Source: Zingiber officinale (lineage: Eukaryota > Streptophyta > Magnoliopsida > Zingiberales > Zingiberaceae). From it: a DNA stretch of 64,000 nucleotides. The stretch's first letter is position 1, and each line of letters opens with the position of its first letter. Position numbers and translations under genes: made by a program. Of the stretch, positions 3,302-60,535 are shown in pieces. The stretch covers positions 74,472,688-74,536,687 of the forward strand of contig NC_056000.1 in NCBI RefSeq assembly GCF_018446385.1, in the 5' to 3' direction. Under the pieces are notes generated by a model, which was not told the DNA's origin, ran no database searches, and was given only the letters and a program-made list of their open reading frames with translations.

Positions 3302-4893
3302 TGTTGGGACCTTTGTGCCCTCTAGAGGGGGGGGGGGGGGGGAATAGCAGTTCATCGCGCGCTTGCGTCGTTTGCTTTGTCTTAATGGTTTGCAGCAGAA
3401 TACAACTCGAAGACAAACTATACAATGTTAACAAGTAGGATTTACTTGGTATCCACCTCAATAAGAAGTGACTAATCCAAGGTCCACACACCGACTCACT
3501 CCTCCACTATGAAATACTCCTTCTCGGTCGCAACCGGAGGCGGAGAAGCCTCGTACAAACCCAAACACACAAATACAACTCACACAAGAAGAGAAATACA
3601 AAAATACAAGTGAAAACACATTCTTCTTGCTTACTTGCTGTGTGTTGTTGTTGCCTCTTGAATCTTGGAGATGCACTCCAAGAACCCTCAAGAACTGGCA
3701 AGAAACTCGGAGGAAATCACTGGTGAAGATCGCAGAAAATCACATGAAGAAATCGCAAAGATCTGCGGAGAAAACGCTCAGCCAAGGCTTTAAACAGTGC
3801 TCCCAATCGATCCAATCCATCCCCAATCGATTGCCACGTCAGCACCGTTCCATCGCAGCCATCCATCACCTGCATCCTGCCCAACGGTCGAATCTCAATC
3901 GATCGACCGATCGATTGGGAACATCTGAATCGATCGGTGGATCGATTCAGAAGCTTTCTATGTTCTCACGATCGTGCTAGAACTCCCCTGCCCAATCGAT
4001 CGACCTATCGATTGACAGTTCCCAATCGATCGCCGGATCGATTGGGAAAGCTTCCATGCTCGCGATTTCACATCTCAATCAATCGATCGATCGATTGAGT
4101 CTTCCCATAATCGCAGCACACTCCAATCGATCCATTGATCGATTGGACTCTGGTTCAATCAATCGCCCGATCGATTGACCAGCCTGGACTTGACTCAAAC
4201 TCAAGTCCAAAATCTCCAACCTATCTCTTGGTCAACCGTGACCTGTTGGGTCTCCATGGCTAGCATTTGGCTACACCCGACCAACCTCGAACTAGCCTTC
4301 TAGTCTCCTCCATCAGCCTTGCGTCCCTCGGATATCTCCCATCTTTCATGCCTTGCCTTCAAGAGCTTCCTTCGGCCTCATCCTAGTTATCGAGTTCTCT
4401 TTGCCAAGTCACACTAGGACTTACCTTGCCAAGCCCACATGCTTGGACTTACAACCTTTGCCAAGATCACACTTGGACTTTCCAATTGCCTGGCTCCTCA
4501 CCAGGACTTTCTCCTTTGCCAAGATCACACTTGGACATTCAAAAAGCCTAACATCCAGTTAGGACTTTCCCAGTCAAGTCTCTTGTCAATCTTGACATGC
4601 TTGACTTGTATTCTCATCAACTTGGTCAACCCTTTGACCATCTCTACAACCGGACTTTCCAAAATCCTAACATCTAGTTAGGACTTTCCCAGTCAAGTCT
4701 CCTGTCAACCTTGACCTGCTTGACTTGTATTCTCATCAACCTGGTCAACCCTTTGACTATCTCCCCAACCGGACGATTACTCCAGCAATCTCCTTATATT
4801 GTCAAACATCAAAACTCAAATCCTGACTCAAACTTGACTCAACTCAAGCTTAGTCAAACTGGTTAAACTTGACCTAGGGAAATTACTCCAACA
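3302..4893 (-). repeat. 3' LTR of element E
   Basis: This 1592-bp LTR runs from TGTTGGGACC to CTCCAACA on the plus strand and matches 35212-37003, which is about 200 bp longer, partly through extra stem-loop units. It contains AATCGATC/GATCGATT dyads (about 3895-4175), CCAAG...CTTGG and CCTGG...CCAGG hairpins (about 4425-4680), and a G run at about 3328-3342. Confidence 0.9.
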
Positions 4894-4908
4894 ATCTCCC
4901 CCTTTTTG
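4894..4908 (-). promoter_or_regulatory. Polypurine tract of element E
   Basis: The plus strand reads ATCTCCCCCTTTTT immediately after the LTR end. On the minus strand this is AAAAAGGGGGAGAT directly before TGTTGG, the usual plus-strand priming site of LTR elements. It fixes E as minus-strand with its 3' end here. Confidence 0.85.
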
Positions 4909-5212
4909 ATGTTTGACAATACATCTAAGTTAGGCTAAATCTCATAGCCTTAACCTCTTCTTTGTTGGTGCAACCTTAGGTCAAGGTTGACCTGGTTGAC
5001 CCGACTCGAGTTGACTTGACTCGAGTTGTATTTTGATGTTTGACTTGAGAAGATTGTTGATGCAACCTTAGGTCAAGATTGACCTAGTTGAGTTGCATGT
5101 TGATGTTTGACACTCGTGAAAGAGTTGTATTCTTGATGTGAGACAAGAATAGATGGTTGGGAGATTATTGGTGCAACCCTAGGTCAAGGTTGACCTGGTT
5201 GACCTGAAAAGT

Positions 5213-5899
5213 CCAAGTATGGAGACTTGGCAAACGGAAAAGTCCAAGCAGGGAGCTTGGCACGCGAAAAGTCCAAGTATGGAGACTTGGCACTGGAAAA
5301 GTCCAAGTACGGAGACTTGGCACGGGGAAAAGTCCAAGCAGGTAGCTTGGCACGCGGAAAGTCCAAGTATGGAGACTTGGCACGGGGAAAGTCCAAACAG
5401 GGAGTTTGGCACGGGAGAAAGTCCTGGTGAGTGAAGCCAGGCAGTCGGGAAAGTCCTGGTGAGTGAAGCCAGGAGAAAGTCCTGGTGAGTGAAGCCAGGC
5501 AGGGGAAAGACCTAGTGAGTGAAGCTAGGCAGTGTGGAAATCCTGGTGAGTGAAGCCAGGTGAAAATCCTAGTAAGTGAAGCTAGGTGAAAGGGAAAGTC
5601 CTGGTGAGTGAAGCCAGGTGAAAGTCCTGGTGAGTGAAGCCAGGCAGTGGGAAAGTCCTAACTGGGATGTTAGGCAGTGTGGAAATCCTGGTGAGTGAAG
5701 CCAGGTGAAAGTCCTGGTAAGTGAAGCCAGGCAAGGGAAAATCCAGATGGATCAGGGATGATCGGACATCTGGTGTTGAGGAAAGTCCAAGTAGGTCAAA
5801 GGGATTGACCGGACACTTGGCAGGGAGTTCTAGCAGGTCAAGGGAGTGACCAGATGCTAGGGATGAAGTACCAATAGGTCAAGGTTGACCGGATATTGG
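5213..5899 (+). repeat. Chain of about 20 short stem-loops with co-varying stems
   Basis: Modules of 17-34 nt, each usually led by AAAGT, form perfect short stems whose sequences differ. Examples: CCAAGT/ACTTGG (5213-5230, 5273-5290, 5303-5320, 5363-5380, 5787-5820), CCAAGC/GCTTGG (5244-5260, 5334-5350), CCAAAC/GTTTGG (5393-5409), CCTGG/CCAGG (from 5423, repeated), CCTAG/CTAGG (5511-5529), CCTAAC/GTTAGG (5657-5674), CCAGATG/CATCTGG (5743-5773), CTAGCA/TGCTAG (5830-5860), CCAATA/TATTGG (5871-5899). The last three modules and 5787-5820 also enclose, fully or in part, a second inner stem such as GGTCAA/TTGACC. The chain lies in U3, so it would be in the 3' end of genomic RNA. Confidence 0.85.
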
Positions 5900-5942
5900 T
5901 TTGGAAGTCTTGGGACTTGGTTTGGGCCAAACCCAAGCTCTG

Positions 5943-6290
5943 GATCGGTCACCAGACCAATCCAGTGATACTTGTTTGCTCTGATCGGTCTGGTGACCGA
6001 TCAGATACCGAACAGAAGCTCTCTGTTCGGTTACTGATCGGTCTGGTGACCGATCAGCAAGCGAGGCAAAGAGAGGCGGTGATCGGTCCACCGATCGAGG
6101 CCATATCTGATCGGTGCGGGACCGATCGAGACGATGTCGCTGAGAAAGCAAGGGTTGGGATCGGTCCGTGGACCGGTCTTTTGATCGGTCCACGGACCGA
6201 TCGAACCCGCATGAAGGTGGGCGGCTTTACGTGAAGAAAGCGTCGATCCGGGACCGATCGAATAGGTCTGATCGGTCCCGGCCGATCGAA
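5943..6290 (+). repeat. Chain of GATCGGTC/GACCGATC dyads
   Basis: About nine imperfect to perfect dyads with a fixed outer half-site and a variable centre, for example GATCGGTCTGGTGACCGATC at 5983-6002 and 6036-6055, and GATCGGTCCACGGACCGATC near 6183. The chain lies just upstream of the TATA box. The same half-site is found at 9701-9779 inside D. In element E the corresponding dyads use AATCGATC/GATCGATT. Confidence 0.85.
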
Positions 6291-6348
6291 CACTAACCGT
6301 TGCGTCCGCAGCTGATTTCTTCTGTGTTTTCTTCACTTTCTTCGCAGG

Positions 6349-6355
6349 TATAAAT
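6349..6355 (+). promoter_or_regulatory. Probable TATA box of the D LTR
   Basis: TATAAAT followed by GAGGGC, placed after the dyad chain and about 570 bp before the LTR end. The 3' LTR has the same box at 11716-11722. Transcription would start at about 6380, which makes the stem-loop and dyad chains U3. Confidence 0.55.
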
Positions 6356-6925
6356 GAGGGCTACGGGACTTCGGTGAAAACTCTCGGTCCTGCTCGCTTC
6401 TTCCTTCGGAAGTTCTCTCCCTGAAGCTTCGCTTACGGTGCTCGAGCTTTCTTGAGCTCAACCGCTTGAAGCTTCGTGAGCTTCCCGCAGTGTTTTTCTT
6501 CGATTGGTTTCTTTGTTGCATCATCGTGAAGTTGCTACTTCATCCGGGACCCCAGTCGACGAGAAGGCGAGTTAGTGTTTGTACATTGTTCTTATCTTTC
6601 TACTTGTATTCCTTGTACTCTTTGTTTGCTGTTGCAAACGTTTGTGGCGAGGTTTCTCCACCCACAAGGAGTATATTGTATTAGCCGGTTCTCCGGGGAC
6701 TCATCCACCGACGGATTGACCGGACTCGTCCACCTTACGGACACGCCGAGGAGTAGGAGCCCTAATCTCCGAACCTCGTTACATCCTCGTGTTAAGGTTT
6801 GGTTTTCTTCTCTTTCGTTTCTTTGTATTTTCCGCTGCGACTAACCTAATTGTAGGAAGAAACGAGAGCGATTTGGGGCGGCTATTCACACCCCCCTCTC
6901 TAGCCGTACGAAGGATCCTAACAAG

Positions 6926-6937
6926 TGGTATCAGAGC
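6926..6937 (+). promoter_or_regulatory. Primer-binding site of D (initiator-Met tRNA)
   Basis: TGGTATCAGAGC begins two bases after the 5' LTR end. It is the standard complement to the 3' end of plant initiator-Met tRNA used by copia elements. Confidence 0.9.
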
Positions 6938-6983
6938 GAGGTCGCTCTTCATCGGATCAACACCCGTGGGAGCAAAGCTAGAG

Positions 6984-8457
6984 ATGGATCAATTCGGAGA
7001 AGACATCACCATTCCACCCTTCTACAACGACAACTTCGCATATTGGAAGGTAAGGATGATGTATTTTCTTAGGACTAATATGTTGAATTGGTTTTGTGTA
7101 CAAGAAGGTTTTACTCCTCCAATGGATAAAGAAGGAGAGCCTCTAGAGAAGAACAAGTGGACGAAGGAACAAGTCCACCAATCTACAATCAACAATGAGG
7201 TAACTAAAACAATTGAATTTTCATTACCTACTAATATTTTGTGTAAGATAGGTAAGTACAACAATGCCAAGGAATTATGGGATAACTTGGCCAAGTACCA
7301 TGAGGAGAGCTCCACTTCAAGCCATGAAGAGGAGCCTAGTGAGCCAAGTAGCTCACATCATGGAGGGAGCGAATTGGGAGTTGAGGGCTACTCAACATCC
7401 AAGGAAGAAGAGGAGGAGAATTCCTCTTGTTCAAGTTCGGAGCAAGAAGAAGAAGTTTCCACCTCCGGAAGGGTTGAAGAAGAAAGCTCATCTCCATTCA
7501 CAACTCTAGGTAACTCAAACACTGTGATTTCAAGCAAATTACACATAATGTGTTTTGAGTGTAGGAAACATGGACATTACAAGAGTAAGTGTCCAAAGAG
7601 GGTAAGAAAGACTCCACCGGCACCAAAGGTCAAGGAAGCCGGAGTCCCAACACGCAAAGGCAAGGAGCACATCGTGTGCTTCCAATGCAAGCAAAGGGGA
7701 CACTATAGGAGCCATTGTCCGAGGGGGAGGCAACCTCACAAGGGCAAGAGACCGGGCACATCGATAGGGGGAGCTAAGGCAAACCCTAAGGTAATCTCTA
7801 AGGTTCATTATTGCAATTCTAATAAAACTCATGCTAGTAGTTTTGTTGCAATTGTTAATAATGATAAGCATGTTAACTTTAGGAACCAATACATGTGCTT
7901 AGGAGCTAAACATGTTAGCCTAGGTAAGGATAACACTAGAAATACCAACCCTAGGATTAGCTTCTAAAGTTAAGGAAAACCTAGGTAGAAATCCCAAGAA
8001 GACTAGACACATGCCTAGGAATATCTCAAGAGAAAATGACAAATTAAAACTTGAGGTATTAGAGAGGGAAAATCAAGTCTTGAGGTCAAGACTTGATAAT
8101 TTAGAAAAGGCTCTTAAAAACATGGAGAAGCCATCTCTAGGGTTTAAGAGTCAAAAACCCAAGTCCAAGGACAAGAAAGGTTTGAGTCACAAACCTAAGC
8201 CCCAAATGGTCAAGCCCACATATCATAATGTTCCATTTGATTATGGAACAAGACCTAGGGCTAGGAAGACCATTACCAAGGTCACAAGGGGAGTCACCCC
8301 TATAGTTGACCTTGATGAGACCCAAATAACCAAGGCTTTAAAGCCTAAGAGGGTCATTAGGAGGGTTGCTAGGGAAGTCATCCCTAGTGAATTTTTAGTG
8401 AACCCAATGAGCTCAAATAGGTATTGGGTTCCTAGGAGCATCTTCTCTACCCCATAA
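6984..8457 (+). CDS. gag region of element D
   Basis: Gag of copia type. The start MDQFGEDITIPPFYNDNFAY is the usual opening of plant copia gag (UBN2-like: small polar lead, then YWK and a W-rich block). An acidic Ser/Glu-rich spacer follows, then two CCHC zinc knuckles about 40 residues apart (CFECRKHGHYKSKC and CFQCKQRGHYRSHC). A basic C-terminal part with a leucine-heptad-like stretch (LEVLERENQVLRSRLDNLE) ends the region. A related gag lies at 33448-35139 in element E, also with two knuckles but a different N-terminus. The region is partly broken. No protease domain is seen. Confidence 0.8.
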
Positions 8458-10382
8458 ATGGGTTAGAGAGTGTCAACTCCAATAAGAAGGGTAGTTAACC
8501 CAACTTTGAGGAAATTGACACTCAAGGAGCATTTTCAAGGTTTTTGGAAACCTTTGAAAATGAAATGGAATAATCTTTATCATTCACTCCTTGGAAGAGT
8601 AAAGTGTGCCAAAGTGAGAATATATTAATCTTACTTTAATGTGACGCAATTTGGAAAAACCTAGAGAAATATCAAATTGGGATTTTGATATTCTCTTAGG
8701 TAATCAAGGCAATCCGGGCCTTAACTTAGAAGTGCTACTCTTGTAGAATTTTAAATGGTATAAATCAAACAAGAGATCAAGAAATGTCAATTTGGGTTTT
8801 GACATTTCCTTGGAGCACTTTGGGCAATCTAGGATTAGAATTTAAGTTAGCTAAGTGATTAAGGATACTTAGATAGGTAATCTAGGTATTTTATTTGTGT
8901 TAACTTACCATGGTTGTTTGCCATATGCCATGTCATGACATCATATTTAATTTATGATCATTTGAAATGCCATGATAATGCTTAGGTAATAATATGTCAT
9001 GTGTTAGTTTAGTTTCAAACTTTATGCCATGACATCATGACATTGGCACATGTTTTCATTTATGATACCATTTTATGCCATGTCATCATCTCTTGCGTTA
9101 ATAATCAATTGAATTGATTTAAGGACAAACATATAATTTGATATTGAGATCAAATTGGTGTTTAGAAAATGCATGAGAACTTAGCCTAAGTTGACCTTAA
9201 CCCATATCTCACATCAAAATTGACTTGGATGTGTTTGATACACTTTAGATGTGTGTGAGATATTAGGATCATGAGTTAGGATCAAGGTGCATAGGTTTTG
9301 TACCTAGATGAGCCTAATTCAAGAAAATAGGGATCATAGGGAAAGCTTGTGTACAAGTCATGTACATTTAGCCCTAAGATTATGGTCCTAAATTCAAATG
9401 GTTTTAAAAGCATTTTAAAATTGATTTGAAAAACCTTGATGAAGCTTTCCTAGTGATAGCATTCTTCATTGAGCAAGATGATACAAAGATGACTTAACTT
9501 TGAACTATTTCAAAGTTTTCGAATTTTGTATCAAGATTTGAAAATGGAAACTATTTTCATAGAAAACTATTTTTCCATGATAATGTATGTTATGAGGAAT
9601 GTATCCTCAAAATTTCACAATTTTTCGAATTTTCTGGAATTTATTAGGGGTTTCTGAATTTCGGGAGAAGAAAAATCAGAAATCCCTGTGATCAGTGTCT
9701 GGATCGGTCACTGGACCGATCCAGAGGGCTGGATCGGTCTGGACCGATCCAGTCTGTGGATCGGTCTGGTGACCGATCCAGTGAGGTCTGATAGCGTGCC
9801 AATGTGCTGAAATTCGACTGCATGTCTGAAATTTCGGCTGACAGTTGGTTTTTAGATTTATAAAGGTTTGAAACTCTCCAAGACATTGTTGGTGCAATGG
9901 TCAAGGGGGAGTTGACTTTTAGGGGGAGTTTTTACTCCTTAAAACTTTTGAGGATTAGTGATATGAGATTATCACTAAGTTGATTGTTGAGTTTAGTATC
10001 AAGGGGGAAATTAAGAGTTTCAATGAAAGGTATGGGACTTTCATTAGGAAGAAACTTTTGACCTTGATATCCTCCTTTTACTTTTTGATGTGTGTCAAAA
10101 AGGGGAGAGTGTTTATTGGAGAACCCAAGTTAGGTTATCGGGTTAACCTAAGCTAGGGGAAGAATGTCAAGGAATGTTCAAGGAAGAACATTGGAATTCT
10201 TTTTGATGTGTGTCAAAAAGGGGGAGAACTATTGGAGAACCCAAGTTAGGTTATCGGGTTAACCTAAGGGGAGAATGTCCGGAGAATGTTCAAGGAAAGA
10301 ACATTGGACATTGGAAGATGGTTGGAAAACCTAAGTTAGGTTATCGGGTTAACCCAACTTGATTATAGTTTTGTCAAACATC
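8458..10382 (+). other. Non-coding 3' internal region of D
   Basis: About 1.9 kb with no enzyme coding that I can recognise. It holds AT-rich sequence with ATGCCATGTCATGACATCAT-type repeats (about 8920-9080), three dyads GGATCGGTC/GACCGATCC at 9701-9779, and reiterated polypurine modules from 10082. The same layout, with other dyads, occupies 14958-12927 of E. Confidence 0.75.
9701..9779 (+). repeat. Three internal GGATCGGTC dyads of D
   Basis: Dyads at about 9701-9722, 9731-9750 and 9757-9779 have the same half-site as the LTR chain at 5943-6290. They lie in the non-coding region about 600 bp before the polypurine tract. Confidence 0.85.
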
Positions 10383-10396
10383 AAAAAGGGGGAGAT
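10082..10396 (+). repeat. Reiterated polypurine-tract modules ending in the true tract
   Basis: TTTTTGATGTGTGTCAAAAA followed by GGGGAGA or GGGGGAGA occurs at about 10082-10107 and 10200-10227. A related ACATCAAAAAGGGGGAGAT ends at 10396, right before the 3' LTR. Each of the first two modules can fold on TTTTTGA/TCAAAAA with the purine run just 3' of the stem. Between them a CCCAAGTTAGGTTATCGGGT block recurs. Confidence 0.75.
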
Positions 10397-12283
10397 TGTT
10401 GGTGCAACCTTAGGTCAAGGTTGACCTGGTTGACCCGACTCGAGTTGACTTGACTCGAGTTGTATTTTGATGTTTGACTTGAGAAGATTGTTGATGCAAC
10501 CTTAGGTCAAGATTGACCTAGTTGAGTTGCATGTTGATGTTTGACACTCGTGGAAGAGTTGTATTCTTGATGTGAGACAAGAATAGATGGTTGGGAGATT
10601 ATTGGTGCAACCCTAGGTCAAGGTTGACCTGGTTGACTGAAAAGTCCAAGTATGGAGACTTGGCAACGGAAAAGTCCAAGCGGGGAGCTTGCGCGAAAAG
10701 TCCAAGTATGGAGACTTGGCTTGGAAAATCCAAGTACGGAGACTTGGCACGGGGAAAAGTCAAGCGGGAGCTTAGCACGCGGAAAGTCCAAGTATGGAGA
10801 CTTGGCACGGGAAAGTCAAGCAGGAGTTTGGCACGGAGAAAGTCCAGTGAGTGAAGCGGTCGGAAAGTCTGGTGAGTGAAGCCAGGCGGTTGGAGAAAGT
10901 CTGGTGAGTGAAGCGAGGGAAAGACCTAGTGGTGAAGCTAGGCGGTGTGGAAATCCTGGTGAGTGAAGCGGTGAAAATCCTAGTAAGTGAAGCTAGGTGA
11001 AAGGGAAAGTCGTGGTGAAGCCGGTGAAAGTCCCGTGAGTGAAGCCGGGGAAAAGTCCTAAGCGGGATGTTAGGCGTGTAAATCTGGTGAGTGAAGCGGT
11101 GAAAGTCCAGTAAGTGAAGCGAGGCAGGAAAATCCAGATGGATCGGGGATGATCGGACATCCGGTGTTGAGAAAGTCCAAGTAGGTCAAAGGATTGACCG
11201 GACACTTGGCGAGGAGTTCTAGCAGTCAAGGGTGACCGGATGCTAGGGATGAAGTACCAATAGGTCAAGATTGACCGGATATTGGTTTGAAGTCTTGGGA
11301 CTTGGTTTGGGCCAAACCCAAGCTGGATCGGTCACCGGACCAATCCGGTGATACTTGTTGCTCGATCGGTCGGTGACCGATCGATCAACAAGCTCTGTTC
11401 GATTCTTGATCGATACGGTGGCCGTCGCCAGCAACGAGGCAAGAGAGCGGTGATCGGTCCACGATCGGGCCATCTGATCGATGCGGGACCGATCGAGACG
11501 ATGTCGCCGAGAAAGCAAGGGTTGGGATCGGTGCGTGGACCGATCGGTTGTTTGATCGGTCCGGACCGATCGAACCCGCATGAAGGTGGGCGCTTTACGT
11601 GAAGAAGGCGTCGATCGGGGCCGTCGAGAATAGGTCTGATCGGTCCCGACCGATCGAACACTAACCGTTAACGTCGCAGCTAGATTTCTTCTGTGTTTTC
11701 TTCGCTTTCTTGCGGTATAAATGAGGGCTACAGGACTTGGTGAAAACTCTCGGTCCTCTGCTTCTTCCTTGGAAGTTCTCTCACTGAAGCTTCGCTTTTA
11801 CGGTGCTCCGAGCTTTCTGAGCTCAACGCTGAAGCTTCGCGTGAGCTTCCCGACAGTTTTCTTGTTGGTTTCTTGTTGCATCCGTCCGTGAAGTTGCTAC
11901 TTCATCCGGACCCCATCGACGAGAAGGCGAGTTAGTGTTTGTACATTGTTCTTATCTTTCTACTTGTATTCCTTGTACTCTTTGTTTGCTGTTGCAAACG
12001 TTTGTGGCGAGGTTTCTCCACCCACAAGGAGTATATTGTATTAGCCGGTTCTCCGGGGACTCATCCACCGACGGATTGACCGGACTCGTCCACCTTACGG
12101 ACACGCCGAGGAGTAGGAGCCCTAATCTCCGAACCTCGTTACATCCTCGTGTTAAGGTTTGGTTTTCTTCTCTTTCGTTTCTTTGTATTTTCCGCTGCGA
12201 CTAACCTAATTGTAGGAAGAAACGAGAGCGATTTGGGGCGGCTATTCACACCCCCCTCTCTAGCCGTACGAAGGATCCTAACA
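10397..12283 (+). repeat. 3' LTR of element D
   Basis: 1887 bp, 74 shorter than the 5' copy. About the first 230 and the last 350 bases match the 5' LTR nearly perfectly. The middle (about 10630-11930) differs by many small losses. TATA box at 11716-11722. Confidence 0.9.
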
Positions 12284-12288
12284 TTCTT

Positions 12289-12412
12289 TATACCAAGGCT
12301 AAATCCCATAGTCTTAACCTCTTCTTTATCACAAGGTTAAATCCCATAGCCTTAACATCTTCTTTATACCAAGGCTAAATCCCATAACCTTAACCTCTTC
12401 TTTATCACAAGG
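12289..12412. repeat. 38-bp tandem repeat of E, target of the D insertion
   Basis: ACCAAGGCTAAATCCCATAG plus CTTAACCTCTTCTTTAT recurs with a period of 38 bp (marker positions 12293, 12331, 12369, 12407). A related unit precedes the D insertion at about 4926-4962, so D landed inside this array. Confidence 0.85.
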
Positions 12413-12480
12413 CTAACTCAACTCGAAATGCCTACCATGTTTTGATACCCATTACTACCTCGATCACATGTTGTTAAATA

Positions 12481-12574
12481 GGTGCAACACGAGGACTTCC
12501 CAGGGAGGCACCTATCCTAGTACTGCTATCGCCCAAGCACGCTTAACTTCGGAGTTCTGATGGGATCCGGTGCA
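12481..12574 (-). pseudogene. Partial 5S rRNA copy in inverted orientation
   Basis: The left IR1 arm holds about 94 nt of 5S rRNA on the minus strand, from ATGCACCGGATCCC to the 3' end. It lacks about the first 25 nt of the gene. It keeps CTCCGAAG, the standard plant sequence, where the other arm has CTCCTAAG, and its C box is altered. The two arms are thus not exact copies and each keeps some original bases. Confidence 0.75.
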
Positions 12575-12587
12575 TATTATCTTGGTA

Positions 12588-12704
12588 GGGTGCGATCATA
12601 CCAGCACTAATGCACCGGATCCCATCAGAACTCCTAAGTTAAGCGTGCTTGGGCGATAGCAATACTAGGATGGGTGACCCCCTGGGAAGTCCTCGTGTTG
12701 CACC
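12588..12704 (+). rRNA. 5S rRNA-like sequence, full length, inside the foldback
   Basis: About 117 nt matching plant 5S rRNA from GGGTGCGATCATACC to CCTCGTGTTGCACC. The internal promoter parts are largely kept: an A box AAGTTAAGCGTGCTTGGGCG and a C box GGATGGGTGACC. The intermediate element differs from the plant standard (GATAGCAATACT in place of GAGAGTAGTACT). It lies in a foldback inside a retrotransposon, not in a 5S tandem array, so it is probably a captured copy. Whether it is transcribed is unknown. Confidence 0.75.
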
Positions 12705-12926
12705 TATTTAACAACATGTGATCGAGGTAGTGATGGGTATCAAAACGTGGTAGGCATTTCGAGTTGATGCAATTAAGATCTAATCTAATCGTTAATGTGT
12801 ATCATATACGCGATCACATGTTGTTGTTGAATCTGCCAAAGTAGAGCAACAACAACATGTGATCGCGTATACGATACACATTAACGATTAGATTAGATCT
12901 TAATCGCATCAACTCGAAATGTAACT

Positions 12927-14958
12927 TAACCTTCCATTCTCCCCCTTTGTCACACATCAAAACCAGAAAACAAATTCTTCTCCATAAGAGGTAACTCTTC
13001 GTTGTTTACAACCTTATATGTTGTTAACAACCCCACAATGAAGATCTCATAGTCTTTATTGCCGCCAAAGCTCCCCCTTGAGCTCTACTTCACTTCACAA
13101 TGCTCATCCTAGAGCATGCATCAACTTTCCAATAAAACTCCCATTCATTGTATTCAATGTTGCTCCTTGAGTAGTAATCTTCTTCTCAATGCTCATCCAA
13201 GAGTATTTTTCACCTTACCAATGAAGGTCTGATCCCCTTCATTAACCCAATGCTCCCCCTTGAGTAGTAATCTACTCCACAATGTTCATCCGAGAGCATT
13301 TATCATCATAGCAATGAAGATAACCAATCTTCCATTGCTCCCCAATACTCGTCCCTGAGTATTAATTCATCACGAAGGTTTAACCCCCTTCCATGGTCTC
13401 TGAAATTTTTTTTATGTTTTTAAAGAGTAACTCCCCCTAAAAACATGGTCAAACTTCTATCATTGCACCGACAATGACTTGGGGTTCCTAAATAATTAGG
13501 AAAACCAAAACTCGAAGTTTTGAAGTTCAAAATTCAATAATGAAACTAAACCTCAACCTAAACTTCACTTAAGTCTACATTAACCAAACCATGCTTGTTT
13601 TCATCATGAAAACTCTCCCTAAGTGTATACAAATATATTCCAAAGGGTTAGGAATGGTTAATGACCCTTGAAAACCAAAACTTGAAGTTTTAAGGTTCCA
13701 AAATTCAGAATTGAAACTAAACCTTATCCTAAACTTCATTTTGGTTTATCTTAACCAATCCATACTTGTTTTCATCATGAAAAACTCCCCCTAAACGTAT
13801 ACAAATGTATTCCAAGGGGTTTGGAGTGGTTAACGGGACTCGAAGTGACTTGAAGTGCTGAAATCGGGCTTTTCCAGCCAAAAAAGACTTCCCAATCGAT
13901 TGAAGTTGGGACTAAATTGATTGAAATCACTTCAATCGATCCATTGATCGATTTCGCAAGCTACTGTTCACAGAAATTCCCTCTAAATCGATCGACTAAT
14001 CGATCCAGCCTAGGTCAATCGATCGGCTGATCGATTCACTATCCTTCGGTTTGCGGGAATTGACTTCCCAATCGATCGGCTAATCGATTGAACTCAATCC
14101 AATCGATCGACTGATCAATTGGGTTTCTAATTTCTCTGAAATCCAATTTCAGCGAAATTCAGAAACTCCCCAAAGATTCTACAAAAATCTAAAAATCATG
14201 AAAACTCATGTAGTCATTATTTAGGGTATACTTTATCAAGGAAAAATAGTTTTATATGAAAATACTTCCTATTTTCAAAGATTTACACAACTTTGAAAAC
14301 CCTTGAAAACTTTAATGTTTTCTCCTAATTTGTGTCTAACTTTTCAATGATGATTACTATCAAAAGATAGTCTTCACAAAGGTTTTCAAAAAGCATGATA
14401 AAATCATTTTCAAAACCAATATCCAACCATGTTCTTTGGGCTCAATGCACATGACTTATACATTAGCTTTCCCAGTGATTGGAAATCACATGACTATATG
14501 CTTTGATGACCCTAAAACTCAACAAGATGCACTAAATCAACATCTTGAGTTTTGTTCATCATCCTAACATCTCACTTGTATCTAACGTGCATTAAAATAC
14601 ATTCAAGTCACCTTATAGTTCTTGTGAAATGTATATTTGGTTTTGCCCTAAACTAAGGGATCATGCATATCTATCTAGGTATTATAAGACTTATGATCAT
14701 TCACCTAAAATGTCATTTGGTATAATCCCACTAATTGAGATATTTACCATTCATAATAAATGCCTTTTATCCTTAATTACAAGAAAATTGACATAATGCA
14801 TGATGATCAATGACATACATCAAAATAAGTAATTTTCAAAAGAAAAAAATATGCTATAGCTACATGATATATGTATGACATGACATGACATGATATTTTT
14901 ATGTTTTTCATAATAAAATGAATGCAACACATGATGTCATGACATATAATATGCAATC
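12927..14958 (-). other. Non-coding 3' internal region of element E
   Basis: Homologous to D 8900-10200 in reverse orientation, with no enzyme coding. It contains several CTCCCCCTTGAG purine/pyrimidine-tract strings (about 13070-13440), about six AATCGATC/GATCGATT dyads (13891-14125), and ATGACATGACAT-rich sequence before the B insertion site. Confidence 0.75.
13891..14125. repeat. Internal AATCGATC dyads of element E
   Basis: About six dyads such as CAATCGATCGGCTGATCGATTC (core at 14014-14033) and CCAATCGATCGGCTAATCGA (around 14070). They share their half-site with the LTRs of E, not with the dyads of D. Confidence 0.8.
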
Positions 14959-30771: not shown

Positions 30772-33442
30772 TATTGGTTGCTACTCGGAAAACCTAATGG
30801 TTCCATTGTACAAAAATTTTGTACAAAGGTCTGAACCTTTTCCTAGCTACCATGTATTCTTTTAAATTAAACTCGGATCGCCTGCGGAACTTAACACGTT
30901 TGATCCTAAGTTTAATTTATTTGTTCTTTTAGGTTTAGACTTGGATCTCCTACAGATCTTAACACGTTCAATCCAAATCACCTAGGTTATTAATTCTATT
31001 AAATATTAATTTCCAAAATTAGCTTCCAGGACTGCATGGCGAGGCACATGACCTTCTTGGATATGGGAACAACCACCACCGCCTAGACAAAGCCTTTTAA
31101 GGAAAGCTAATATTTAATTTCCTTAAATAACTTTAGGTCAACCAAAAGGAACAATCAAATCACAAGGAAAAGAAAAATAAAAGAACACAACATCGAAAAC
31201 TAATTCGAAATACTAGAATCGCATGCCTCTTGTATTTGGTATTTTTACATGGAGATAAAACTAACATGATGCGGAAAACAATATTAGTTATACCTTACTT
31301 AGTAGATAATGACCTCTTGATCTTATACCGTATTCCTCTTCTAATCTCGGGCATTGTGTGGGCAACGATCTTCCGAGACGAGGACCACCAAGGCACCTTC
31401 TTCTTCCTTCCTTCAAGTTTCGGCCAAGCATATCTTCTAAAGGATGAAGAACTTTTTTCACCAACCAAGCTCCAAGGGACGCAAGCTTTCTCTCCTTATT
31501 CCTCAAGCTAGATCCGGCCACCTCCTCGAAGCTCCAAGAGATAAAGGATTTTGGCCACACAAGAGGAAGAGAGAAAATGAGAAGGGTCGGCCACACCAAG
31601 GAAGAAAAGAGGGAGAAAATAGAATAGAGTCGTAAGTTATGAAGCCTCCTCTACCCCCTCTTTTATAATCCTTGGTCTTGGCAAATAAGGAAATTTTAAT
31701 AAAAACTTCCTTAATTCTTTTGCCATGAAAAGGAAAATTTAATTAATTAAAAATCAAATTTCTTTTCTCAATTCATATGGCCGACCACCACAAGCTATAA
31801 ACAAGGAGAGTTTTAATTAATTAAAACTTCCTAATTTGTCTCCAGAAATTTATAAAAATTTCTCCAATAATTTTAATCCCTTCATGGTTAGTAAAAAGGA
31901 AATTTTATAAATTAAAATCTTTCTTTTAAACATGTGGATAAAAAGAAAGTTATCTCTAAAAATTAAAATATCTTTTAATCTATAAATAAGGAAAGATATC
32001 AAATCTTTTCTTAATCTTTTGTAGAAACTTATAAAAGAGAATATTTAATTTTTTAAACTCTCTTTTAAATCATGAACATGTTTAAAAAGGAAAATTTTCT
32101 TAAAATTTAAAATCCACCTTTTAATCAACAAATAAGGAAATATTTCAAATTTTAAACTCTCTTTTAAACATGTAGATGATTTACAAATAAAGAAAGTTTT
32201 TACCAAAAATTAAAACCATCCTTTTAATCTACAAATAAGGAAAGAGATTAATCTCTTCTCTTAATCTTTTGTAGAAAGCTATAAAAGGAAATTTTTAATT
32301 TTTAAACTCTCTTTTTAAAACCTTGATATCAACATAAGAAATAATTTTAATAAAAAACCTTTTTAATATTCTAGTGGTCGGCCACCTAAGCTTGGGACCC
32401 AAGCTTTGGCCGGCCACCAACTTGGCTCATCCACTTGGTCTTGGCCGACCCTAGCTTGGATTCCAAGCTAGCTTGGCCGGTCCTATTGGATGGGTAAGAA
32501 GGTGGGTATGTGGTGGGTATAAATCTCTATATACAAGAGGCTACGATAGGGACCGAGAGGAGAAATTGGTTTTGGTCTCCCGATGAAATTAAGCATCCCG
32601 TGTTCGCCCCGAACACACAACTTAATTTCATCAATAATAATTCATTCCACTAAAGAACTATTATTGAACTATCGCACCAATCCCAAATTACATTTTGGGC
32701 TCTTTCTTATTATGAGTGTGTTAGTCTCACTGTGTTTAAGATAGCAAATGCCCACTAATTAAGTAAGTTACTGACAACTCACTTAATTAATATCTAGCTC
32801 CAAGAGTAGTACCACTCAACTTCATCGTCATGTCGGACAAAGTCCACCTGCAGGGTTTAACATGACAATCCTTATGAGCTCCTCTTGGGGACATTCTCAA
32901 CCTAGATTACTAGGACACAGTTTCCTTCTATAATCAACAACACACACTATAAGTGATATCATTTCCCAACTTATCGGGCTTATTGATTTATCGAACTAAA
33001 TCTCACCCATTGATAAATTAAAGAAATAAATATCAAATATATGTGCTTGTTATTATATTAGGATTAAGAGCACACACTTCCATAATAACTGAGATCTTTG
33101 TTCCTTCATAAAGTCAGTATAAAAGGAACGACCTCTAATGGTCCTACTCAATACACTCTAAGTGTACTAGTGTAATTATATAGTTAAGATAAACTAATAC
33201 CTAATTACACTATGACCTTCCAATGGTTTGTTCCTTTCCATCTTGGTCGTGAGCTACTGTTTATAATTTATAAGGAACCAATAACATGATCTTCTGTGTG
33301 TGACACCACACACCATGTTATCTACAATATAAATTAATAGAACAACTACATTTATCATAAATGTAGACATTTGACCAATGTGATTCTTATTTCTAGATAA
33401 ATGTTTATACCAAAAGATAGATTTTTAGTATACATCCTAACA
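30772..33442 (-). mobile_element. Solo LTR A, related to the LTRs of element B
   Basis: 2671 bp with a perfect ATAAC duplication (30767-30771 and 33443-33447). It shares all main modules of the B LTRs but is clearly diverged from them, with an extra AT-rich reiteration at about 32100-32260. The palindrome TTGTACAAAAATTTTGTACAA is at 30808-30828. No internal sequence remains. Confidence 0.88.
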
Positions 33443-33447
33443 ATAAC

Positions 33448-35139
33448 TTCCCTAGATACCTTCCTAAGGGCCTTTCTTGGCTTCTTAGAAGTCTTGGTCA
33501 CTTCCACTGGGTCACTTCTAAGGCTAACTTCCCTTGTAATCTTCTTTGTGACTTTATTTGACCTTTTTGGAGCTTTAGTCACCTTTACTAGGTCAACTCT
33601 AGGAATAGCCTCCCTTGTGACCTTCTTTGTGACTTTGTTAGACTTCTTAGAAGTCTTAGTCACATTGGTCTTGCCAACAGTACTTTTAGGGATTCCTTCC
33701 CTAGTATCTTTGACTTGACCTCTCAACCTAGGGTTGATCCCATAGCTATATGGAACTCTATGAAAGGAAGTCACATCCTTCTTGGCTTTAGGTTTGTATC
33801 TCAAACATCTATAGTCATTGGATGGCTCTTGTCTAGCTCTCCCTAGAGTTTGCTTATTTTGACCCTTAAGTATATTTTCCATTCTTGCTAGAGTCCTCTC
33901 TAAGTTATCAAGTCTTGACCTCAAGACTTGGTTTTCCGTCATTAAATCCATAGGTTTGGATTTTTCTTGACCCCTATGAGCATTTCTATATTTAGGCATG
34001 TATCTAAAATCCTTAGAGTTATTGCCTGAATTGTTATCTACCTTCCTAACCTTAGGTATGGTAGTTCTAGCATGAGAAGAAATATATTTATCCTTAAAGT
34101 TATCATGCCTCTTATTCTCATGATAATTAGCATCAAAATGATAAAAGTTATTTCTAGCATGCTTTTTATCATGTGTCAAAGGAATATGCTCATTAAATGA
34201 TACCTTGGTTTTTACCTTGGAAACTCCCCCTAGACTTGTGCTTCCTCCTTTGACCTTGAACGACTTCTTCCCCTTTGGACATTGACTTCGATAATGTCCA
34301 TTTTGATTACACAAGAAACACACAATGTGTTCCTTGCTCTTCTTTGTTGTGGGGATTGTCTCTTTGGGCTTCTCCTTGCCCTTGAGTACTACTTGACTCT
34401 TCTTCTTGGCCAACTTGGGACACTTGCTCTTGTAGTGCCCATGCTCCCTACACTCAAAGCAAATGATATGATTTTTGTTATTTACAATTGAAGTTTCTAT
34501 ACCTTTGCTTGTAGAGATGATGCTTGATTCTCCAATTGATGTAGCTTGAATTGTGGAGGTAGCATCATCTTCTTCTCCTCCTCTTGAGGGTGTGAGTGCT
34601 TCCACCTCTTCAATTCGTGAGGATGTGGATGCTTCCACCTCTTCCTCTCTTGAAGATGTGGATGATCTCTCCTCATCTTCCTTCCCCTCCTCTTTTTTTT
34701 CTTCCTCGAATGTTGCACTCGTGTCAACATCCGATTGGTCCTTCTCTTCTTGGACCAATGAACCCTTCTCCTTGGGCTCCTCCACTCCTTGGAGTTGTGT
34801 AGGGGTCTCATGATAAGCAATGATCTTTTTCCAAAGATCACTTGCACTTATGTATTCACCTACACTCACAATGATATTAGAAGGAAATAAATTTAGCAAA
34901 ATTTTAGTTACCTCCTTATCGGCCTCCACTTGTTCCTGTTGTTCCTCGGTCCAATGTCGAGGTCGGAGGCACTTCCCCTTCTTGTCTGTTGGAGCTTCAA
35001 ATGGGTCCTCCAAGACCATCCATTGGTTCCAATCCATTTGGAACCAAGTCTCCAATCGGTTCCTCCAAAAATTGAATTCCTCTTTGTCGTATGGAGGTGG
35101 AATCCGGATGTCCCATCCGAGAGGTCCTTCACTCTCCAT
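33448..35139 (-). CDS. gag region of element E
   Basis: Gag of copia type on the minus strand, starting MESEGPLGWDIRIPPPYDKE (UBN2-like lead, then a W-rich block). A Glu/Ser-rich spacer follows, then two CCHC knuckles (CFECREHGHYKSKC and CFLCNQNGHYRSQC) and a basic tail with TENQVLRSRLDNLERTLARM, as in D. The tail has repeated KxSNKVTKKVTREAIPRVDL-like units of about 30 residues. Solo LTR A interrupts the downstream end. The start lies 59 bp inside the primer site. Confidence 0.8.
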
Positions 35140-35197
35140 CTTCTTCTTCCTCTAGCTTCTTGCTCTCTTGGCGGTTAGTCCGTAGAAGAGCGACCTC

Positions 35198-35211: not shown

Positions 35212-37003
35212 TGTTGGGACCTTTGTGCCCGCTAGAGGGGGGTGAATAGCGGTTCATTGTGCGCTTGCTTCGTTTGCTTCGTCTTGATGGTTTGCAGCGG
35301 AATACAAATCGAAGACAAACTATACAATGCTAACAAGTAGGATTTACTTGGTATCCACCTCAAGAAGAGGTGACTAATCCAAGGATCCACACATCGACTC
35401 ACTCCTCCACTATGAAATACTCCTTCTCGGTCGTAATCGGAAGCGGAGAAGCCTTGTACAAACCCAAACACACAAATACAACTCACACAAGAAGAGAAAT
35501 ACAAAAATACAAGTGAAAACACACTCTTCTTGCTTACTTGTTGTGTGTTGTTGTTGCCTCTTGAATCTTGGAGATGCACTCCAAGAACCCTCAAGAACTG
35601 GCAAGAAACTCGGAGGAAAACACTGGTGAAGATCGCAGAAAATCGCAGGAAGAAATCGTAAAGATCTGCGGAGAAAACGCTCCGCCAAGGCTTTAAACAG
35701 TGCTCCCAATTGATTCAATCCATCCCCAATCGATTGCCACGTCAGCACCGTTCCATCGCAGCCATCCATCACTTGCATCCTGCCCAACGGTCGAATCCCA
35801 ATCGATCGACCGATCGATTGTGAACATCTGAATCGATCGGTGGATCGATTCAGAAGCTTTCTGTGTTCTCGCGATCGCGCGAGAACTCCCCTGCCCAATC
35901 GATCGACCGATTGATTGGCAGCTCCCAATCGATCGACCAATCGATTGGCAGCTCCCAATCGATCGCTCGATCGATTGGGAAAACTTCTGTGCTCATGATT
36001 TCACATCCTAATCAATCGACCGATCGATTGGGCCTTCCCACAATCGCAGCACACTCCAATCGATCCATTGATCGATTGGACTCTGGTTCAATCGATCACC
36101 CAATCGATTGACCAGCCTGGACTTGACTCAAACTCAAGTCCAAAATCTTCAACCCAACTCTTGGTCAACCGTGACCTGTTGGGTCTCCATGCCTAGCATT
36201 TGGCTACACCCGACCAACCTCGAACTAGCCTTCTAGCCTCCTCCATCAGCCTTGCGTCCCTCGGATATCTCTCATTCTTCACGCCTTGCCTTCAAGAGCT
36301 TCCTTCGACCTCATCCTAGTTATCGAGTTCTCCTTGCCAAGTCACACTAGGACTTACCTTGCCAAGACCACATGCTTGGACTTACAACCTTTGTCAAGAT
36401 CACACTTGGACTTTCCAATTGCCTGGCTCCTCACCAGGACTTTTTCCTTTGCCAAGATCACGCTTGGACTTTCCAATTGCTTGGCTTCTCACCAGGACTT
36501 TCTCCTTTGCCAAGATCACACTTGGACTTTTCAAAAGCCTAACATCCAGGTAGGACTTTCCCAGTCAAGTCTTCTGTCAACCTTGACATGCTTGACTTGT
36601 ATTCTCATCAACCTGGTCAACCCTTTGACCATCTCCACAACCGGACTTTCCAAAAGCCTAACATCTAGTTAGGACTTTCCCAGTCAAGTCTCCTGTCAAC
36701 GTCGACCTGCTTGACTCGTATTCTCATCAACCTAGTCAACCCTTTGACCATCTCCACAACCGGACTTTCCAAAAGCCTAGCATCTAGTTAGGACTTTCCC
36801 AGTCAAGTCTCCTGTCAACCTTGACCTGCTTGACTTGTATTCTCATCAACCTTGTCAACCCTTTGACCATCTCCCCGACCGAACGATTGCTCCAGCAATC
36901 TCCTTATATTGTCAAACATCAAAACTCAAATCCTGACTCAAGCTTGACTCAACTCAAGCTTAGTCAAATTGGTCAAACTTGACCTAGGAAAATTGCCCCA
37001 ACA
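35212..37003 (-). repeat. 5' LTR of element E
   Basis: 1792 bp. It contains eight AATCGATC/GATCGATT dyads (about 35799-36112) and, at 36363-36790, stem-loops such as CCTGG/CCAGG, CCAAG/CTTGG and CCTAAC/GTTAGG (36658-36674). It therefore has the same two-layer design as the D LTR, read on the other strand. It has one more CCAAG unit than the 3' LTR. Confidence 0.9.
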
Positions 37004-60462: not shown

Positions 60463-60535
60463 TGTTGCTGCCCAGGATCGAACTGGGGACCTTTAGTGTG
60501 TAAGACTAACGTGATAACCACTACACCACAGCAAC
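60463..60535 (-). tRNA. tRNA-Val (UAC anticodon)
   Basis: The minus-strand sequence folds as a standard tRNA: acceptor GTTGCTG/CAGCAAC, D arm GTGTAGTGGTTATCAC, anticodon stem TTAGT/ACTAA with loop CTTACAC (anticodon TAC), T arm CCCAG-TTCGATC-CTGGG, discriminator A. There is no intron and CCA is not encoded, as usual. A T6 run on the minus strand at 60453-60448 serves as pol III terminator. It is separate from the SINEs and LTRs of the window and looks functional. Confidence 0.93.

Follow-up and report, generated by a model that had tools for sequence, protein, structure and literature searches.

The window (i.e., the whole 64-kb stretch of ginger DNA analysed here) harbors a complete, young LTR element of the Ty1/copia type, which encodes Gag only and carries the marks of Sireviruses. 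It is bordered by a 5-bp target-site duplication (TTCTT; left copy at 4958..4962, right copy at 12284..12288). The following parts lie between these copies on the forward strand: the 5' LTR (TGTTGG...CTAACA, 4963..6923) with a TATAAA sequence at 6349..6354; a primer binding site (TGGTATCAGAGC, 6926..6937), which we take to be of the tRNA-iMet type; the gag open frame (6984..7967); a second open frame 3' of gag (8011..8457); a cluster of seven polypurine-tract-like (PPT-like) sites (9903..10394), the last of which forms the junction with the 3' LTR; and the 3' LTR itself (10397..12283). An inverted repeat with exact 14-nt arms surrounds this junction (left arm at 10373..10386, right arm from 10465). 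The zinc-knuckle model matches the gag frame twice. For Pfam zf-CCHC, the score of the two matching stretches in the window element is at the model cut-off, the gag frames of four sampled relatives score above it, and the Retrotran_gag_2 model gave matches only below its cut-off. The gag frame in the window is shorter than those of most relatives listed, and the stretch 8011-8457 is part of one longer frame in most relatives listed. No pol frame of at least 180 residues was found within the 64-kb window. The insertion is young, since the flanks of the 5' and 3' LTRs differ at just 1 of 241 and 1 of 369 positions. Furthermore, the LTR start (4963-5205) contains three near copies of TGTTGGTGCAACC...AGGTCAAGGTTGACC, so that the LTR terminus itself is multiplied.

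The U3 region of the 5' LTR contains a chain of 22 hairpin modules (5206..5903, forward strand). The assignment to U3, already made in the earlier note, holds because the TATA sequence starts at 6349, downstream of the chain. Each module follows the outline GAAAGTCC-arm-loop-arm'-GG (in the fuller form GGAAAGTCC-arm-loop-arm'-GGCA), with arms that vary from module to module; the short modules are 16-19 nt long, and the loops measure 5-22 nt. Modules 8-22 were placed by a scripted search for complementary strings and modules 1-7 from inverted repeats, so the exact arm match of the placed modules is partly there by construction. Counting perfect non-overlapping hairpins confirmed the chain: 22 of at least 5 bp were found (mean 6.5 and maximum 12 in 500 shuffles), and 13 of at least 6 bp (mean 1.8 and maximum 5 in 500 shuffles). 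The earlier note had spoken of about 20 stem-loops with at least nine stem sequences, and all nine types that it named do occur between 5213 and 5899. It was also right about a second, nested stem in the last four modules (GATCA/TGATC in module 19, GGTCAA/TTGACC in modules 20 and 22, GGTCA/TGACC in module 21). Of the stems that it named, CCTGG and CCTAG are 5 bp long with T.G at the sixth position. No Rfam model matched inside 5206-5903 (region 4000-13000 scanned, E up to 1). The same chain is present in the 3' LTR (10639..11288, forward strand) with many small losses, mostly at CAG/CTG, and homologous chains of a second family are located on the reverse strand, opposite to the window element, at 4399..4774 and at 36334..36881, the latter with a gag frame nearby (33355-35151, reverse strand).

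Three marks of Sireviruses are present (multiple PPTs, the inverted repeat at the junction and RM palindromes), and of a fourth, the large gag with CCHC knuckle and coiled coil, the knuckle is seen. Besides the seven PPT-like sites of the window element, each of eight relatives has 2-7 GGGGGAG sites; the terminal PPT and the attachment site read GGGGGAG-AT-TGTTGG, with the exact inverted arms described above. A second palindrome cluster upstream of TATA (5930..6300, forward strand) contains four exact CGGTC-4 nt-GACCG boxes (5986, 6039, 6162, 6186), which have the CGG-CCG core of the RM boxes in PMC2829016 (Table 3) and resemble the RM of Osr10/Osr8 described there. RM-type palindromes are also found at 9699-9781, between gag and the 3' LTR, a position reported for envelope-bearing Sireviruses (PMC2829016); no envelope frame was seen in the window element. 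According to Bousios et al. 2010 (PMC2829016), the Sirevirus RM occurs in many palindromic copies in the upper LTR, upstream of TATA, with letters that are specific for a family and a dyad symmetry that is kept. The hairpin chain of the window has the same position, family-specific letters and retained symmetry, and the element, like Sireviruses, has several PPTs and an inverted repeat around the PPT/LTR junction (PMC2829016). In contrast to the RM as described there, i.e., one box repeated at high identity with a CGG-CCG core, the stretch 5206-5903 lacks this core and has at least nine stem types, loops of 5-22 nt and nested stems. Judged from its sequence, the hairpin chain is thus separate from the published RM (here 5930-6300) but shares its logic. 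For maize Sireviruses, an excess of small RNAs and strong predicted secondary structure have been reported for the palindromic cis-region (Bousios et al. 2016 as cited in PMC10760457). That region likewise consists of clustered palindromes in a Sirevirus LTR, but its motif is described as one sequence repeated (PMC10760457), unlike the ginger chain with its covarying stems. As to coding content, the window element has LTRs and Gag without pol and therefore falls under the TR-GAG elements (terminal repeat with Gag domain), defined by LTRs, primer binding site, PPT and Gag frame in the absence of pol (PMC6022998). This definition, as given there, concerns content and includes no hairpin chain, whereas the ginger group has the chain, about 20,000 junctions and Sirevirus signals. 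The mix of many covarying stem types in one element appears to go beyond the known palindromic LTR repeats of Sireviruses. No description of a covarying hairpin chain in an LTR was found in titles and abstracts of the open-licence literature, which does not prove its absence.

The group is very large. A 30-base motif of the PPT/LTR junction, searched through the 3.09-Gb genome with at most one mismatch, gave 9,966 + 10,018 occurrences (~20,000), and the reversed motif, used as a control, gave none. Twenty junctions were sampled, approximately every fifth of 100 listed places (19 exactly, one the place before). All of them are exact motif matches in the first 18 Mb of a single chromosome, and the sample is therefore systematic yet local. 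When modules were parsed by an anchor rule independent of pairing, all 20 junctions proved to bear them (2-22 each, median 9). The LTR starts fall into six types with 11, 4, 2, 1, 1 and 1 members (type labels are our own). For comparison, eight flanks of other copia elements gave 12 anchor-rule matches in 56,000 bases on both strands. Two control flanks, L088 and L091, each have a neighbouring reverse-strand junction with 7 and 6 anchor-rule matches, respectively. The L091 junction belongs to an LTR type already in the sample, and L088 represents a seventh, distant type with a different LTR start, other stems (e.g., CCTGGT/ACCAGG, TAGGG..CCCTA) and loops with C; its chain may be an independent instance of this design. 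In four copies (L112, L073, L080, L084), another covarying-looking hairpin, CGGAGA...TCTCCG (variants AGAGA/TCTCT), replaces some of the last modules.

The coding content of the relatives agrees with that of the window element. Within 4 kb upstream of the 3' LTR, seven of eight sampled relatives have gag frames (in pieces in L121) and no long pol frame, and the eighth has neither; note that forward frames of at least 90 residues were scanned, so that broken pol pieces could escape. The claim of the earlier note that the element makes only Gag, and the TR-GAG assignment, thus extend to seven of the eight relatives. A search with the Gag C-terminus (150 matches scored) revealed 670 amino acids as the longest open frame. 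On the forward strand, the 3' flanks of 10 of 151 RVT_2 matches contained neither an array nor a Sirevirus junction, which is therefore uninformative about helper elements; these ten flanks include L088 and L091, with their reverse-strand junctions, and the eight that served as control.

Do the stems covary? The close-copy set (39 copies fetched of 40 scored matches, the 40th being the window, together with both window LTRs; 41 aligned rows) has nearly invariant stems throughout this young family and therefore cannot test covariation. Covariation was seen between modules and between families. Among 152 unique anchor-parsed modules from 81 copies, Watson-Crick pairs at positions 3, 4 and 5 number 86, 102 and 79, compared with 49.7, 60.3 and 53.4 after shuffling of the 3' arms; position 6, with 55 versus 46.4 (shuffle maximum 66), is not clearly above. 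The 55 unique modules of the 20 sampled junctions have 137 Watson-Crick cells, compared with 90.9 on average and 113 at most in 2,000 shuffles, with no excess at position 6 alone (18 versus 17.8).

Two nested modules were analysed with all extracted variants counted and no rows dropped: A1 (57 variants), where the search rule also picked up rows from neighbouring module types, and A2 (36 variants), where one row comes from an LTR start. Doubly changed cells number 39 in A1 (14.6 in shuffles) and 26 in A2 (12.7), the scores being 0.143 (0.091) and 0.155 (0.082), respectively, and none of 500 shuffles reached either value in either module. Slid partners were lower on all measures, the nearest being A1 at +1 (22 cells, 0.106). 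Less striking are the pairs with a double change, 6 versus 3.7 in A1 (11 of 500 shuffles) and 5 versus 3.8 in A2 (121 of 500), and the further pair types (61 of 500 shuffles in both). The excess of compensatory pairs on which the earlier note had staked its case is therefore present over shuffled and slid controls, which take no account of phylogeny, but it consists of many cells and few independent pairs. The outer helices of A1 and A2 covary, and the inner ones (GGTCA/TGACC) retain their letters, partly because the module search demanded GTCA. In most copies of family 1, A1 has an A.C mismatch at pair 8-29. Double changes can also be found between modules with homologous loops, namely CCAAGC/GCTTGG versus CCAAAC/GTTTGG, CCTAAC/GTTAGG versus CCTAAT/ATTAGG (two modules of one copy, L062), CCAATA/TATTGG versus CCAACA/TGTTGG, CCAAG/CTTGG versus CTAAG/CTTAG, and CCTGG/CCAGG versus CCTAG/CTAGG (two families with different loops).

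In total, 1,115 of 1,337 modules from 81 copies are fully paired. Whole-module duplication is evident as well (A-B pairs recur in L050, and B modules in L104): the arrays change in length and order through duplication and loss of modules, and while the arms drift in sequence, most of their complementarity is retained. The simple view that stem variants arise from duplication of whole modules only accounts for much of the module variety, but the covariation between modules and families remains. We infer that the conserved property is intrastrand pairing and no particular sequence, and are fairly confident that a pairing-dependent process, either selection or templated copying, keeps the arms complementary. 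The earlier note had attributed the paired changes to selection on a folded RNA or cruciform; the covariation between modules and families speaks for this, but there is nearly none within the young family, and template switching could match the arms instead.

Part of the apparent covariation is probably nanopore error at CAG/CTG. Compared with the 5' LTR of the window, the 3' LTR is changed at 25 of 30 CAG sites and 12 of 24 CTG sites, and the central base of CAG/CTG is changed in 29 of 54 cases versus 33 of 582 other A/T and 72 of 713 G/C bases. Gap runs in the LTR alignment number 38 for the 3' LTR, where 37 fall within the middle part, versus 5 for the 5' LTR. The possibility that the 3' LTR carries an old, decayed array was rejected, as the flanks show the 1/241 and 1/369 differences given above and the gaps are concentrated in the middle; the degraded look of this chain (10639-11288) is probably an assembly artefact. 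For ginger, a haplotype-resolved nanopore assembly has been reported (3.1 Gb, 11 chromosome pairs; PMC8342452), and the CAG/CTG changes would fit nanopore error at methylated CHG sites, unpolished in repeats, although no report of such error was found in the open-licence literature. With such errors, CCTGG/CCAGG would appear as CCCGG/CCGGG, which can pass for compensation. Approximately 10 of 31 compensated cells sit in CAG/CTG (eight at position 3 of CCTGG/CCAGG, two at position 3 of CCAGATG/CATCTGG) and were excluded from the covariation evidence. The pattern is a warning for covariation work on nanopore assemblies. Losses clustered at CAG/CTG extend over 10639-11915 (versus 5206-6555) between nearly identical LTR ends, and L073, L079 and L084 look similar by eye.

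What does the pairing act on? Our best reading takes the chain for an array of palindromic repeats, carried in U3 by a very large group of Sirevirus-like Ty1/copia elements in ginger that are Gag-only (TR-GAG type); that its working form is RNA we favor only tentatively. The likeliest target of the pairing is the transcript, because the array is close to the 3' end of genomic RNA; since the short modules vary between 16 and 19 nt and the loops between 5 and 22 nt, hairpins fit better than dyad sites of fixed spacing. The transcript would carry a row of short stems that present purine loops, a structured 3' region with a possible role in binding the two-knuckle Gag of the element itself, or in protecting or processing the RNA. 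The inner GGTCAA/TTGACC stems, with their letters kept, may double as DNA sites for transcription factors. In the common LTR types, the sense-strand loops consist mostly of purines and contain hardly any C (window: 1.2% C and 83% purine among 166 loop bases; 82% purine and 3 C in 1,186 bases of the 20 samples), as compared with 52% purine in the LTR start and the RM cluster. A C-poor U3 has been reported for Sire LTRs generally (PMC3601003).

One-sided changes in the 1,337 modules show no preference for wobble pairs (99 G.T versus 92 A.C, 122 others; without the CTG/CAG position 76 versus 81; by set 22/18, 49/22 and 28/52), and this comparison is weak, as most one-sided changes probably postdate insertion. 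When 15 arrays were folded with 60 shuffles each, the antisense strand was lower in 9 and the sense strand in 5, and one array was tied; the window copy had a z of -6.0 (sense) and -10.7 (antisense), compared with -6.2 for an equal-length gag control (sense). Folding energy was therefore set aside as evidence for RNA, the gag control likewise beating its shuffles and the antisense strand being lower in 9 of 15 arrays. Unpaired C is depleted in the folded sense strand of the window copy (0.10 versus 0.20 shuffled, z -3.2; antisense z -3.5) and over six copies (z -1.7 to -3.2 sense, -1.6 to -3.5 antisense), a depletion that is not strand-specific, because the antisense strand shows it as strongly. 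The notion that C is confined to stems was dropped, since shuffles also pair most C, the antisense excess is equal, and the L088 loops contain C.

Somewhat less likely is an action of the array as double-stranded or cruciform DNA. In that case it would extend the Sirevirus palindrome cluster and offer dyad protein sites, e.g., inverted W-boxes for WRKY factors, the small RNAs being a side effect. The array lies directly upstream of the RM-type palindrome cluster and TATA, and the pairing shows no consistent strand preference. TTGACY, which we take to be the W-box bound by WRKY factors, occurs 13.05 times per 1000 bp of LTR start versus 1.66 in shuffles (mean of the 20 samples, both strands; about eightfold), and this enrichment in the first kilobase of the LTRs suggests a stress-linked expression. 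The inner GGTCA/TGACC helix retains its letters, in part owing to the GTCA requirement of the search. For Sirevirus palindromes, moreover, a cis-regulatory role has been discussed, as has their being hot spots of small RNAs (PMC2829016, PMC10760457). On the other hand, the outer arms swap letters yet stay paired, and their spacing is variable, neither of which is needed by sequence-specific dimers; the loops are purine-biased on the sense strand; and an inverted GTCAA/TTGAC pair is absent from the examined stretch of the L088 chain, which has a single TTGACT only. In sum, strand composition leans weakly to RNA, the W-boxes and the position lean to DNA, and the pairing itself is neutral. With the L088 chain, the pairing pattern becomes broader, but the arguments from W-boxes and from purine loops both lose force; it therefore leaves our weighing of the readings as it was.

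Mutation alone, without any selected function, is a rather unlikely but live alternative source of the pattern: tandem duplication would have built the array, and template switching during reverse transcription or DNA replication would copy arm onto arm. Perfect stems can arise and be repaired through template switching (PMC8794818), retroelements replicate via single strands, and the whole-module duplication in L050 and L104 is plain. However, modules with paired arms are present in every LTR type sampled, and one-sided changes persist in older copies (family 2). Arm repair is therefore not frequent in chromosomal copies, but it may occur during replication. If template switching is at work, a retroelement array would be well suited for observing how mutation alone keeps hairpins matched.

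The RNA reading can also be put in a much more specific form, which we consider improbable. Retroviral packaging stem-loops (psi) are short stems that present G-rich loops to a Gag with CCHC knuckles. The 22 covarying stems, most with C-free, purine-rich loops (ATGGAG, TGAGTGAAG, AGGGA), could be a multivalent landing array for the zinc knuckles of Gag. Gag would thereby be concentrated on the element's RNA, so that an element without pol would make particles of its own and depend on others for reverse transcriptase and integrase alone, and array length, altered by module duplication, would tune the strength of packaging. The ginger array has short stems similar to those of psi but far more units, and these lie in U3 at the 3' end. 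Finally, a simple minisatellite, whose stem variants copy a few ancestral modules and whose covariation is an illusion from duplication and assembly error, agrees with the near invariance of stems in the 41 close copies and with the compensated cells (~10 of 31) in CAG/CTG, error-prone in the window 3' LTR, but is highly improbable in view of several compensated pairs outside CAG/CTG that are common to copies of different LTR types.

If the pairing is selected, be it as RNA, as we prefer, or as DNA, the ~20,000 junctions with 2-22 modules in the sampled arrays offer, within one genome, a large natural experiment for telling apart three roles of LTR palindromes (DNA site, RNA structure, source of small RNAs), which maize Sireviruses have not settled. 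Selected pairing would also have a bearing on the way in which elements without pol become so numerous.

Outside the element, the window contains two matches to 5S rRNA in opposite orientation just past its right end (12479-12706; 61.9 and 95.4 bits), which together form an inverted repeat. They are followed by a further inverted repeat at approximately 12792-12884, and a tRNA-Val(TAC) gene is located on the minus strand at 60463-60535.
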